From: Lachnospiraceae bacterium
Lineage (GTDB): Bacteria; Bacillota; Clostridia; Lachnospirales; Lachnospiraceae
Assembly: GCA_017397645.1 (NCBI GenBank)
Contig: JAFQIE010000014.1
Coordinates: 1 to 64,000, forward strand
Length of the DNA: 64,000 nucleotides
Direction of reading: 5' to 3'
In this document: positions 23,726 through 33,805 of the stretch, in pieces
Layout of the letters: each line of letters starts with the position of its first letter
Numbering within the stretch: position 1 is the stretch's first letter
Position numbers and translations under genes: made by a program
The notes under the pieces: model-generated
Databases searched by the model: none
Told to the model about the DNA's origin: nothing
Seen by the model: the letters and a program-made list of their open reading frames with translations, nothing else

Positions 23726-25744
23726 TCACGAATGGGACTGTTTTTTCGTCTGTTTGCGGTATTGAACCGGCGTTATTCCATAGTTTCTTTTGAACAATCT
23801 GTTGAAATGTTCCACAGTTTCATATCCCACTTCTGCCGCCACAGTCTCTACGGTATAATTGGTTTCCCGCAACAGTTCTTTTGCTTTTTTCATACGGGCT
23901 TCTTTCACCACTTCCTGGAATGTGATACCCGATTTTTCTTTGATATACTTGGATAAATAGGGTTTGGACAGATGAAAAGTATCCGACAATACATCAAGCG
24001 TCACATTTTTATAATCATTCTGGATGTAGTTGATAATCTCAACAATTCTATACTCTCTACCCTCCACAATATGTTGTTCTTCTGCCAATTTATTCACAGC
24101 CACTGCCAGTGCTTCAATGGAGGATTTGATAATATCCTCATCTACACCTACGCCCCAGTACATCTTCTCGTCAAGTGTGACTGCCACATAGGACGCTGCC
24201 TTGGAACCGGAACCCTTGGAAATCGCATGTTCCTCGTAGACAGATAACTCATAACTGATGCCAAAGAATGTTTTCAGCGCATTGCTGACTGCATCCAAGC
24301 GACCATTGCCCATGGTGCGGATCACTCGGCGCTCTCCGCCCTGCTCTATGAAAACTTCTGCCTGAATACCCTTATCCTGTTTGAAATGACACTCCGGAAT
24401 GCGGAAAATCATCTGAGGCTCCATATAATGCTCTTCGAAAATGCGGTAAATCTCCGCGGGTTGCAATTCGTGATGCTGTTTGTCGGAAACACCCTTTACC
24501 AGGTATCCCACTTCTTCCTTCATTGCCGCGGGCAAGGAGAAACCAAACTGTTGTTTCAGCACAAAGGCCACGCCACCCTTTCCGGACACACTATTGATGC
24601 GGATCACATCAGACTCATACTCTCTTCCCACATCTGCAGGATCAATGGGCAGATAGGGAACATCCCATCTATTGCCGCTTTTTCCTTCTTTATTATAATT
24701 CATGCCTTTACTAATAGCATCCTGGTGGGAACCGGAAAACGCCGTAAACACTAACTCACCTGCATAGGGCGTACGCTCGTGCACCTTCATTCCCGTAAAA
24801 GACTCGTAAGCTTCTTTTATCCCCAGTATATTGGAGAAATCCAGGCCGCTGTCCACGCCATGACTCATCATATTCACAGCCACGGTTACCAAATCTACAT
24901 TTCCTGTTCTTTCACCATTACCGAAAAGCGTTCCTTCCACCCGGTCAGCGCCTGCCAAAATACCAAACTCCGCATCACTGACACCACATCCTCTGTCGTT
25001 GTGGGGATGTACGCTAATCACTACACTATCCCTATACTTCAAATGCTTGTGCATGTATTCCACCTGACAGGCAAACACATGGGGCATTGCCACCTGCACG
25101 GTAGTAGGCAGATTAATAATTGCTTTGCGCTCCGGCGTAGGCTGCCAAACATCCAAAACTGCGTTGCAAACTTCCAGAGCGTAATCCACCTCTGTCTGAG
25201 AAAAACTTTCCGGGCTGTATTCAAAAGTAAAGTTCCCTTCCGTTTCCTCTGCCAACTGCTTTAACATTCTCGCACCTTCCACCGCCAGCTGTTTAATGGC
25301 AGACTTATCCTTCTGAAAAACCTGTTCTCTCTGTTCCACAGAAGTAGAGTTATAAAGATGTACTACCGCGTGGGGTGCACCTTTAACAGCCTCAAAGGTT
25401 TTGCGGATAATATGCTCTCTGGCCTGGGTCAATACCTGTATGGTGACATCCTCAGGAATCATATTTCTCTCAATCAAGGCACGGATAAATTTGTACTCCG
25501 TATCGGAAGATGCCGGAAAACCAACCTCTATCTCCTTAAACCCTATCTCCACAAGCAACTGAAAGAATGCCAGTTTATCCTCCAGACTCATAGGGTCTAT
25601 CAATGCCTGATTTCCGTCACGAAGATCCACACTACACCAAATAGGCGCCTTTTCTACGGTGTCTTTTTTTACCCAGTCATAGGTCATTTCAGGCGGAAGA
25701 TGGTAGGATTTTTTATATTTCTCGCTGTAATCTATCTTTGACAT
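23726..25744 (-). CDS. leuA: 2-isopropylmalate synthase fused to an AraC-type DNA-binding domain
   Basis: A 672-aa protein in one uninterrupted frame. Residues 1-430 are the LeuA type 2 (Mycobacterium-like) catalytic barrel, with RDGNQALIDP (42-51) and the metal site HPHND (246-250), condensing acetyl-CoA with 2-ketoisovalerate in leucine synthesis. Residues about 440-558 are the LeuA dimer/regulatory domain. From residue about 563 (nt 24058 to 23747) a full two-helix-turn-helix AraC domain follows: LDVLSDTFHLSKPYLSKYIK, then VETVAAEVGYETVEHFNRLF and GITPVQYRK. Ordinary LeuA ends near residue 560. The fusion suggests an enzyme that also regulates transcription. ATG with GGAGG 9 nt upstream. 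Domain calls are firm; regulatory role is inference. Confidence 0.92.
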   Translation of the reverse strand: MSKIDYSEKYKKSYHLPPEMTYDWVKKDTVEKAPIWCSVDLRDGNQALIDPMSLEDKLAFFQLLVEIGFKEIEVGFPASSDTEYKFIRALIERNMIPEDVTIQVLTQAREHIIRKTFEAVKGAPHAVVHLYNSTSVEQREQVFQKDKSAIKQLAVEGARMLKQLAEETEGNFTFEYSPESFSQTEVDYALEVCNAVLDVWQPTPERKAIINLPTTVQVAMPHVFACQVEYMHKHLKYRDSVVISVHPHNDRGCGVSDAEFGILAGADRVEGTLFGNGERTGNVDLVTVAVNMMSHGVDSGLDFSNILGIKEAYESFTGMKVHERTPYAGELVFTAFSGSHQDAISKGMNYNKEGKSGNRWDVPYLPIDPADVGREYESDVIRINSVSGKGGVAFVLKQQFGFSLPAAMKEEVGYLVKGVSDKQHHELQPAEIYRIFEEHYMEPQMIFRIPECHFKQDKGIQAEVFIEQGGERRVIRTMGNGRLDAVSNALKTFFGISYELSVYEEHAISKGSGSKAASYVAVTLDEKMYWGVGVDEDIIKSSIEALAVAVNKLAEEQHIVEGREYRIVEIINYIQNDYKNVTLDVLSDTFHLSKPYLSKYIKEKSGITFQEVVKEARMKKAKELLRETNYTVETVAAEVGYETVEHFNRLFKRNYGITPVQYRKQTKKQSHS

Positions 25745-25782
25745 AACAAACTGCCTCCCAAACTAAATTGAAAACTTCTCTT

Positions 25783-25811
25783 ATAGTAGCATATATTTTA
25801 ACCTAAAACAA
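25783..25811 (-). promoter_or_regulatory. Tentative leuA-araC promoter
   Basis: Minus strand: TTGTTT (25806-25811), 17 bp, TACTAT (25783-25788), giving a leader of about 30 nt. The leader is too short for a leucine attenuator or T-box, so regulation, if any, acts on DNA in the 25745-26034 divergent region shared with the FNT gene. Confidence 0.4.
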
Positions 25812-25970
25812 TAGTACTATCTTTGCTTTTCTTGACCTATTTTAATGTGATTTTGTAATTATTTCTGTTTTTTCTATATTTTATGTGTTCTTAATATTGT
25901 GCAATTTTGCATCTTTTTCTTTTATGAATTTGACTGATTTTAACATTTTTAGGAAATTTTGAAAAATTTG

Positions 25971-32519: not shown

Positions 32520-33449
32520 TTATTCGGGAATGGTAATTCCAAGTTGTGCACAAAGTTCCTCGTTATAAGAAACGGAAGGTGTGAGTGTTTTAATCTCAAT
32601 GTCTGCAGGTGTTTTCTTTCCAAGAAGAATCTCTGCTGCCATCTTTCCGGTCTCCTGACCAAGTGCATAATAGTCAATTGCCAAACTAGCGTAGCAAACT
32701 GCACCGCCGTAGCTGGTGTAAACAGGCACATTCTTTTCATTACAAATGGTTCCTACTACAGTATCATTGTCTGCAACAGTATTGTCGGAAGGAACATAGA
32801 TTGCCTTGCTTTCGCTTGCTGCATTGGTCACAATACCCTGAAGTTCTGTGGTGTCAGAGAAAGTATAAGCCTTTACCACAATGCCCTGTGTTTCAAATTC
32901 AGCCTTTACTGCTTCATACTGAATCACGGAATTAGACTCGTTAGAGCAATAGAGAACACCAACCTGATCTCCTGCTGCAAGACCAAGGGATTCCACCATC
33001 ATCTTTGCCTGCTCGTCGAAAGGAACAGCATCAGATGTACCGCTTACATTTTCAGGAATATTGTTTGCGAAGGTATCTGCATAATCTGTTACAGAAGTTC
33101 CTAAAACAGGAATCTTGCTGTTGGTGGTTGCGTTTGCTGCCGCAAGAAGTGCAGGCGTTGCATTTGCCATAATAAGATCCACATTTTTTGCGGTCATGGT
33201 ATTGATTACTGTGGAACAAAGGTTAGGCTCACCGGCCACCTGAGTGTCGATGGCAACAGTCTTACCTTCCTTTTCCAGTTCTGCTGTCAAAGCGTCTACA
33301 AAGCCCTGTGTCGCTTTGTCCAGGGATTCATGCTCCATCAACTGACAAATTCCAACGGTAAAGTCGGTTTTTTCTCCACAGGATGTCAAGGTAAGGCATG
33401 CGCCTGTACACATGACAAGTGCGAGTACTAAAGATACTACTTTTTTCAT
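32520..33449 (-). CDS. ABC substrate-binding lipoprotein, PF04392 (TrpX-like)
   Basis: A 309-aa lipoprotein; the lipobox LTSC places the lipidated Cys at residue 24. The mature protein begins TDFTVGICQLMEHESLDKAT, the signature of the ABC_sub_bind (TrpX/YtrX-like) family, with two Rossmann-like lobes (DLIMANATPALLAAANATTN; GVLYCSNESNSV). Streptococcal relatives in this family are linked to tryptophan uptake. The mRNA leader carries a T-box whose specifier reads best as UUC, so phenylalanine or a related aromatic is the predicted ligand here. First gene of the operon. Confidence 0.9.
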   Translation of the reverse strand: MKKVVSLVLALVMCTGACLTLTSCGEKTDFTVGICQLMEHESLDKATQGFVDALTAELEKEGKTVAIDTQVAGEPNLCSTVINTMTAKNVDLIMANATPALLAAANATTNSKIPVLGTSVTDYADTFANNIPENVSGTSDAVPFDEQAKMMVESLGLAAGDQVGVLYCSNESNSVIQYEAVKAEFETQGIVVKAYTFSDTTELQGIVTNAASESKAIYVPSDNTVADNDTVVGTICNEKNVPVYTSYGGAVCYASLAIDYYALGQETGKMAAEILLGKKTPADIEIKTLTPSVSYNEELCAQLGITIPE

Positions 33450-33521: not shown

Positions 33522-33805
33522 AAAAATCTCTGTTCATCCCCGTATCGGGATGAACAGAGACAGTTATTCACCGTGGTACCACTCTGCTTCGCCCTTTTCT
33601 CACGAAAAGCGCCTTATTAGGTGCATCTTTACACCCGTTTCGATGTAACGGTCGAACCCGGACAGCCTACACAGTTAAAACCTTCAGCCAACAGCTCACG
33701 GAATGAATTCACCATTTTTGCATTACTGCCTCGCACCCACCGACAGCTCTCTGAAACACAATTGTAACAGCTACTACTTTCCGTTCAAACGCTTTTTTAT
33801 ATTTG
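33522..33805 (-). promoter_or_regulatory. T-box riboswitch, probable Phe (UUC) specifier
   Basis: The minus-strand leader has every T-box mark. Stem I starts near CAGAGAGCTG with GGTGGGTGCGA and has GTGAATTCATTCCGTGAGCT on its 3' side; the conserved T-box AGTGGTACCACGG pairs with tRNA NCCA (33572-33583 on plus). A strong terminator follows: CTCTGTTCATCCC/GGGATGAACAGAG then TTTTTTG (33522-33560). By the family pattern GAA-specifier-A/G, the specifier is TTC (33706-33708), reading uncharged tRNA-Phe. Uncharged tRNA would block the terminator and switch on the transporter. ATT as specifier is a weaker alternative, and UGG in the lower stem is unlikely by position. Confidence 0.85.

Follow-up and report, generated by a model that had tools for sequence, protein, structure and literature searches.

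The locus described here raises the question of whether an enzyme that is inhibited by its end product can also be the transcription factor that controls its own synthesis. 2-Isopropylmalate synthase (LeuA) forms a dimer whose subunits are joined through their C-terminal regulatory domains, and leucine inhibits the enzyme at the C-terminal domain. In the window, by which we mean the whole 64,000-nucleotide stretch of Lachnospiraceae DNA that was analysed, a single open frame encodes a LeuA followed by an AraC-type DNA-binding domain.

A complete LeuA joined in frame to an AraC domain

The initial annotation read this frame as a complete LeuA fused to an AraC domain, and the reading is borne out by a 672-aa frame that lacks an internal stop and by its Pfam domains (Table 1). 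All three LeuA domains (catalytic, post-catalytic, and LeuA_dimer) are present, and residues 8–552 are a 2-isopropylmalate synthase by NCBIfam NF002991, at 793.8 bits against a cut-off of 455. The AraC/XylS two-HTH domain is also above its Pfam cut-off, with an HTH_18 match covering residues 586–665 (E 1e-22; 80.7 bits against a cut-off of 33.6). Pfam and the residue counts given below together place an enzyme with intact catalytic motifs and its own DNA-binding domain in one chain. An additional internal start within the 672-aa frame is possible.

A stop or frameshift near position 24058 had been named as what would undo the fusion. The frame is unbroken through 24058, the same frame is continuous in family relatives, and an assembly error at about this position is excluded by the continuous frame in many genomes of the family. 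In the window's own assembly (G000; 46 contigs, 1.81 Mb, 74% complete), there is no second LeuA match; 36 further AraC-domain matches are present there besides the fusion.

Table 1. Features of the leuA-araC gene, its protein domains, and its predicted promoter region, in window coordinates.
Feature	Position	Strand	Basis
leuA-araC fusion gene, 672 aa	23726..25744	(-)	ATG start, no internal stop; frame continuous in relatives
HMGL-like catalytic domain, residues 34-310	24815..25645	(-)	Pfam E 9e-69
IPMS post-catalytic domain (IPMS_D2), residues 330-397	24554..24757	(-)	Pfam E 2e-31
LeuA_dimer allosteric/regulatory domain, residues 426-553	24086..24469	(-)	Pfam E 7e-25
Linker, residues 554-565	24050..24085	(-)	dN/dS
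AraC-type DNA-binding domain, two HTH motifs, residues 566-665	23750..24049	(-)	Pfam, conservation, dN/dS
Predicted operator half-site 1 (ATTAAAATAGGTCAAG)	25831..25846	(-)	PWM match
Predicted operator half-site 2 (AAGATAGTACTATTG), degenerate in the window, overlaps the -35 region	25809..25823	(-)	PWM match
-35-like TTGTTT, 17 bp before the -10	25806..25811	(-)	read from sequence
-10 TACTAT with upstream TG (extended -10)	25783..25788	(-)	TGNTANNWT in relatives
Ribosome-binding site GGGAGG	25754..25759	(-)	read from sequence

Distribution of the fusion

The search for this architecture across genomes, which the initial annotation had called for, found it well beyond the window. Among the matches listed, a fusion frame reaching query residue 663 or beyond is present in at least 44 of the 200 genomes sampled from the window's family, its own included, and a LeuA match at E ≤ 1e-60 is present in 181 of the 200. 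With a junction query, the fusion was found in 17 of 295 genomes of the order sample, all of them within the window's family, and in 4 of 398 genomes of the phylum sample. One genome of another class (G753), which shares only its phylum with the window, carries the fusion with 58% identity over the junction query. In a collection of named genomes, 43 of 60 loci were flagged as fused, one of them (L086) with a broken frame, and the named fused strains include Acetatifactor muris DSM 23669, Lachnospiraceae GAM79, and Lachnoclostridium An181. Many sequences from the host bacteria come from animal guts and faeces, as given in the record titles. In the open PMC full-text literature, we recognised no published description of a LeuA–AraC fusion among the matches listed.

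Several genomes depart from the common arrangement. Two that belong to the same genus and are 99% complete (G391 and G470) gave no junction match at E ≤ 1e-40, and the fusion may have been lost within that genus. In three loci (L073, L101, and L106) the AraC domain lies directly 3′ of leuA in a different frame, with the operator described below kept. The junctions of L073 and L106, at the window equivalent of ~24050–24090, hold A9 and A8 runs, respectively; the frame change could stem from a homopolymer error, from a split gene, or from programmed slippage. Beside the fused LeuA, three genomes (G022, G144, and G009; L118, L119, and L120) encode another LeuA that is unfused, belongs to a different lineage, and is ~50% identical.

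Both parts of the protein are conserved

We compared the fused proteins with two unfused sets, the close LeuA relatives (U1) and a more distant LeuA lineage (U2). The catalytic motifs RDGNQ (R42 D43 G N Q in fusion numbering) and HPHND (H246 P H248 N D250) are invariant in 68 fused, 32 U1, and 18 U2 proteins, and both HTH recognition segments are nearly invariant across the 68 fused proteins. In a 57-row alignment of fused proteins, G479 N480 G481 and Y503 are also invariant. They align with G531 N532 G533 and Y554 of the Mycobacterium tuberculosis LeuA, and we take the residues equivalent to these to line the leucine pocket. The residue counts and the tree described below leave out L050 and L099 in addition to the rows dropped from the matrix sets, which are L055, L063, and L091 (treated as near-duplicates), L086 (broken frame), L095 and L137 (cut), and L073.

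The median dN/dS in close pairs, computed only from pairs with usable dS (15–23 of 37), comes to 0.051 in LeuA (22 pairs) and 0.056 in the AraC domain (15 pairs). Of the five parts tested, the linker is under the weakest constraint, with a median of 0.139 (20 pairs). Purifying selection acts on the AraC part as it does on LeuA. It could be argued that the fusion is an assembly artefact or a non-functional read-through, given that the window comes from a 46-contig assembly that is 74% complete, but its presence in the family genomes and named strains counted above, together with this purifying selection, makes such an origin almost negligibly probable.

A predicted operator upstream of fused leuA

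The first sign of an operator was an AT-rich repeat ahead of a −10, in the DNA upstream of the fused genes. The predicted operator 5′ of fused leuA is a direct repeat of ~15 bp, spaced 22 bp start to start, which adjoins an extended −10 and whose half-site consensus resembles TTAAAWWHATCAWT. Repeat identity peaks at lag 22 (0.47 versus 0.35 shuffled; at lag 23, 0.40 versus 0.34), and the spacing of the half-sites is mostly 22 bp (39 counts versus 4 for 23 bp). The extended −10, TGNTANNWT, was found in 59 of 66 sites. If the start site lies 7 bp after the −10, which we assumed, the candidate operator spans approximately −69 to −33. This 22-bp-spaced repeat was found by sequence only, and AraC/XylS-type binding to it is predicted. 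The operator of the window itself scores 14.0 bits, the second-weakest of 37 clade A sites (only L064 is lower), and is still the best match in G000 (E 1.4e-5).

The operator tracks the AraC domain

We built the PWM separately on the clade A and clade B halves of the fused set and then cross-tested the two, with shuffles made in blocks of two bases. The PWM trained on clade A recovered 23 of 32 clade B sites, and the one trained on clade B recovered 32 of 37 clade A sites. In the sets first classed as unfused, each half-trained PWM matched 3 of 35 U1 loci and none of 18 loci of the U2 lineage, to which the second LeuA copies of G022, G009, and G144 belong. With the combined matrix, three U1 matches score high. 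One of them, L099, is a fused gene truncated where its contig ends; in the other two, L101 and L106, the AraC domain is encoded in the next frame. A fourth U1 match, L108, is weak (10.3 bits) and lies beside a T-box.

Scores above 10 bits occur in 72 of 73 fused loci, a count that includes the training loci and two exact duplicates (L009/L055 and L017/L091); L064 fails. When leuA genes are divided by the presence of the AraC domain, 70 of 71 AraC-bearing versus 2 of 50 AraC-lacking genes exceed 10 bits, and 69 of 71 versus 0 of 50 exceed 15 bits (Fisher p < 1e-29, a value that ignores shared ancestry and includes training rows). A further 20 fused genes all score above 10 bits, with a range of 11–51. 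One of them, L296, is the training locus L067, hence 19 are independent; all 19 exceed 10 bits and 15 exceed 15 bits. In L015, L016, and L019 the operator lies outside the last 400 bp, further upstream and ahead of a T-box (at −525, −824, and −416, respectively).

The same association is seen genome-wide. With a 67-position model, the best match in the genome lies upstream of the fused leuA in 33 of 35 fused genomes, and in 16 of the 18 fused genomes whose own locus was not in the model. The exceptions are G116, in which the leuA site is second best, and G135, in which it is not among the matches listed. In the 30 fusion-free control genomes, the strongest match (E 3.9e-5) is a partial one in front of a gene that reads as rplS from its sequence. 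Three fused genomes have a leuA site weaker than this best control: G156 (4.3e-5), G062 (0.09), and again G135. In the genome of another class (G753; L295), fusion and operator are found together.

A decayed form of the element is found 570 bp upstream of an unfused gene, L102 (G112); it scores 13.4 bits, keeps half-site 2 and the −10, and lies ahead of a T-box. This element may be the relic of a lost system.

The operator could belong to a separate transcription factor, the AraC domain being structural or meant for other DNA. Binding of the fusion to the operator is predicted from sequence, and the 36 further AraC-domain matches in G000 would supply candidates for such a regulator. However, an operator above 15 bits occurs only with the AraC domain, and this holds even for AraC-lacking genes that are placed among the fused ones on the tree; moreover, fusion and operator appear together in a transfer to another class. 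We regard a separate owner of the operator as quite improbable, and the fusion itself very probably binds the candidate leuA operator physically.

The leuA promoter is the only strong conserved target predicted

The initial annotation had guessed at three kinds of target: the gene's own promoter, the divergent FNT gene, and other leucine or branched-chain genes. The first of these stands, as the conserved operator that tracks the AraC domain strongly supports the own promoter as the predicted target. The FNT gene was rejected, for it lies near fused leuA in only 1 of the 37 fused loci that exceed 9 kb, whereas the operator is present in nearly all. The neighbourhoods of leuA are varied, with leuA standing alone in the loci examined and a PpiC-like gene nearby in 19 of the 37 fused loci longer than 9 kb.

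For other leucine and branched-chain genes the signal is at best weak. The leuC genes were chosen from aconitase-family matches by length and an adjacent small-subunit gene, no leuC model being used; in 10 leuC loci the best match with the full matrix is 9.7 bits, ~70 bp before leuC in L191. Operator-only matches above 10 bits are absent from 28 of 30 ilvN loci and from 25 of 26 ilvE loci. The matches near ilvN score 14.6 bits in G042 (L185/L223), 11.9 in G198 (L247), and 9.4 in the ilvN locus of G036, and those near ilvE score 12.1 bits in G091 (L175/L272) and 9.7 in G057. These single-genome sites are perhaps lineage-specific targets or chance. The ilvN, ilvE, and leuC loci together gave 3 matches above 11.5 bits in 0.49 million positions, and control DNA gave 2 (16.5 and 12.3 bits) in 1.19 million positions, so that the excess near branched-chain loci is marginal at most.

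These matches, including the one before leuC, and their marginal excess over control positions could indicate that the AraC domain governs a wider branched-chain regulon in which leuA is only the strongest target. But the sites outside leuA are weak and not common to genomes, whereas the medians of the leuA sites are near 40 bits, and the control DNA has its own matches of similar kind. We consider a regulon extending to leuC, ilvN, and ilvE improbable. Secondary genome-wide matches, at 17 loci, lie mostly near seemingly unrelated genes and do not recur (an SDR oxidoreductase, a BASS transporter, a MarR regulator, rplS, and others, named by eye). In what was searched, namely the leuC, ilvN, and ilvE loci and the genome-wide matches, leuA is the only strong conserved target found. 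It is highly probable that LeuA–AraC acts on its own promoter as a dedicated autoregulator.

T-box leaders and the history of the fusion

Many leuA genes without the AraC domain are preceded by a T-box. By pattern, a T-box lies upstream of 27 of 32 U1, 1 of 18 U2, and 3 of 71 AraC-bearing genes, the pattern search having missed at least one (L313). By Rfam gathering score, T-boxes are present at 11 of 17 U1 loci and at 7 of the 44 AraC-bearing loci scanned; the window leuA is among the 37 of 44 in which Rfam found none. In seven leuA T-boxes with alignments shown, the specifier, read by eye, is CUC or CUG, both leucine codons. A strict rule by which the T-box is swapped for the operator is ruled out, because 7 of the 44 AraC-bearing loci have both. 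The protein system appears largely to replace the RNA system and sometimes to be stacked on a T-box. Elsewhere in the window, a T-box leader at 33553–33798 (−) lies upstream of an apparent ABC transporter operon, in which a substrate-binding protein (32520–33449), a permease, and an ATPase were recognised by eye.

We placed the AraC domain on a LeuA-core tree, made by a quick method from 83 of 121 rows (every fourth clade A row and every third U2 row). AraC presence changes seven times on this tree, with at least three changes forced by starred branches. This pattern is consistent with one gain and several losses of the AraC domain, without proving it. The operator follows the AraC domain in an average of 2.8 of 3 independent contrasts on starred branches, which are too few for significance.

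A model for coupled feedback

We propose that the gene would encode a working 2-isopropylmalate synthase that doubles as a transcription factor for its own promoter. Because LeuA is dimeric, the fusion would present two AraC DNA-binding domains, and these would bind the direct repeat, with half-site 2 at the −35 of the extended −10 promoter. The leucine-free enzyme would activate leuA transcription. Leucine at the allosteric domain would then inhibit catalysis and also release or reorient the DNA-binding domains, so that one sensor would close both the enzymatic and the transcriptional feedback loops.

The sense of this control can be weighed from the promoters. Class-II AraC/XylS activators have an operator geometry that overlaps the −35, and this geometry favours activation by the leucine-free enzyme. 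In clade B, promoters have a poorer −35 (2–4 of six) beside the extended −10, which suits dependence on an activator. An autorepressor would bind the same operator, block RNA polymerase at the −35, and use leucine or the leucine-bound enzyme as co-repressor. Such an arrangement would agree with the overlap of half-site 2 with the −35 region and with the clade A promoters, which have fair −35s (3–5 of six to TTGACA) and good −10s (4–5 of six to TATAAT), but it sits poorly with the class-II geometry and with the clade B −35s; we consider autorepression possible though rather unlikely. LeuA–AraC is thus likely to be an activator rather than a repressor. As the DNA-binding domains come right after the allosteric domain, leucine would be the most economical effector, and we hold it to be a reasonably likely one. 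For the complete reading, in which the allosteric end-product site of LeuA would do the ligand sensing for an AraC-type activator that serves only its own promoter, and in which this system interchanges with or stacks on the leucine T-box, we see about an even chance.

If the model is true, a single binding of leucine would curb the activity of the enzyme and its synthesis together. The feedback circuit would be unusually compact, one polypeptide serving as enzyme, allosteric sensor, and transcription factor, with its operator predicted. Many natural relatives with and without the AraC tail exist, and how RNA-based (T-box) and protein-based control of leuA have replaced one another in evolution is directly testable. 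If leucine is the effector, the fusion would offer a natural, ready-made design for a leucine sensor.

Comparison with known systems

The M. tuberculosis LeuA (1sr9, 3fig) is homologous over residues 29–523, with a weak second stretch to 554, but its solved chain ends at the regulatory domain and has no AraC match. Leucine T-box leaders resemble the system described here in that they precede leuA in most U1 relatives. They differ in that they work by RNA attenuation, sensing uncharged tRNA, and at fused genes they are mostly absent or follow the operator as a further level of control.

The operators of AraC/XylS proteins are direct repeats with near-helical spacing that reach the −35 region. 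The fusion shares with this family the HTH_18 two-HTH domain, and the predicted operator upstream of fused leuA is a direct repeat reaching the −35 region. The N-terminal part of AraC/XylS proteins is a small ligand-binding domain, whereas that of the fusion is a complete LeuA enzyme.

PutA and BirA, known as trigger enzymes, work in metabolism and are described as repressors of transcription as well (PMC6978683). The likeness is that an enzyme which senses the state of its pathway itself controls the transcription of that pathway, which in LeuA–AraC is predicted. PutA and BirA control operons, whereas LeuA–AraC is the feedback-inhibited first committed step of a biosynthesis. To our knowledge neither PutA nor BirA uses an AraC domain; LeuA–AraC carries an AraC-type domain, and the only strong conserved target found for it is its own promoter.
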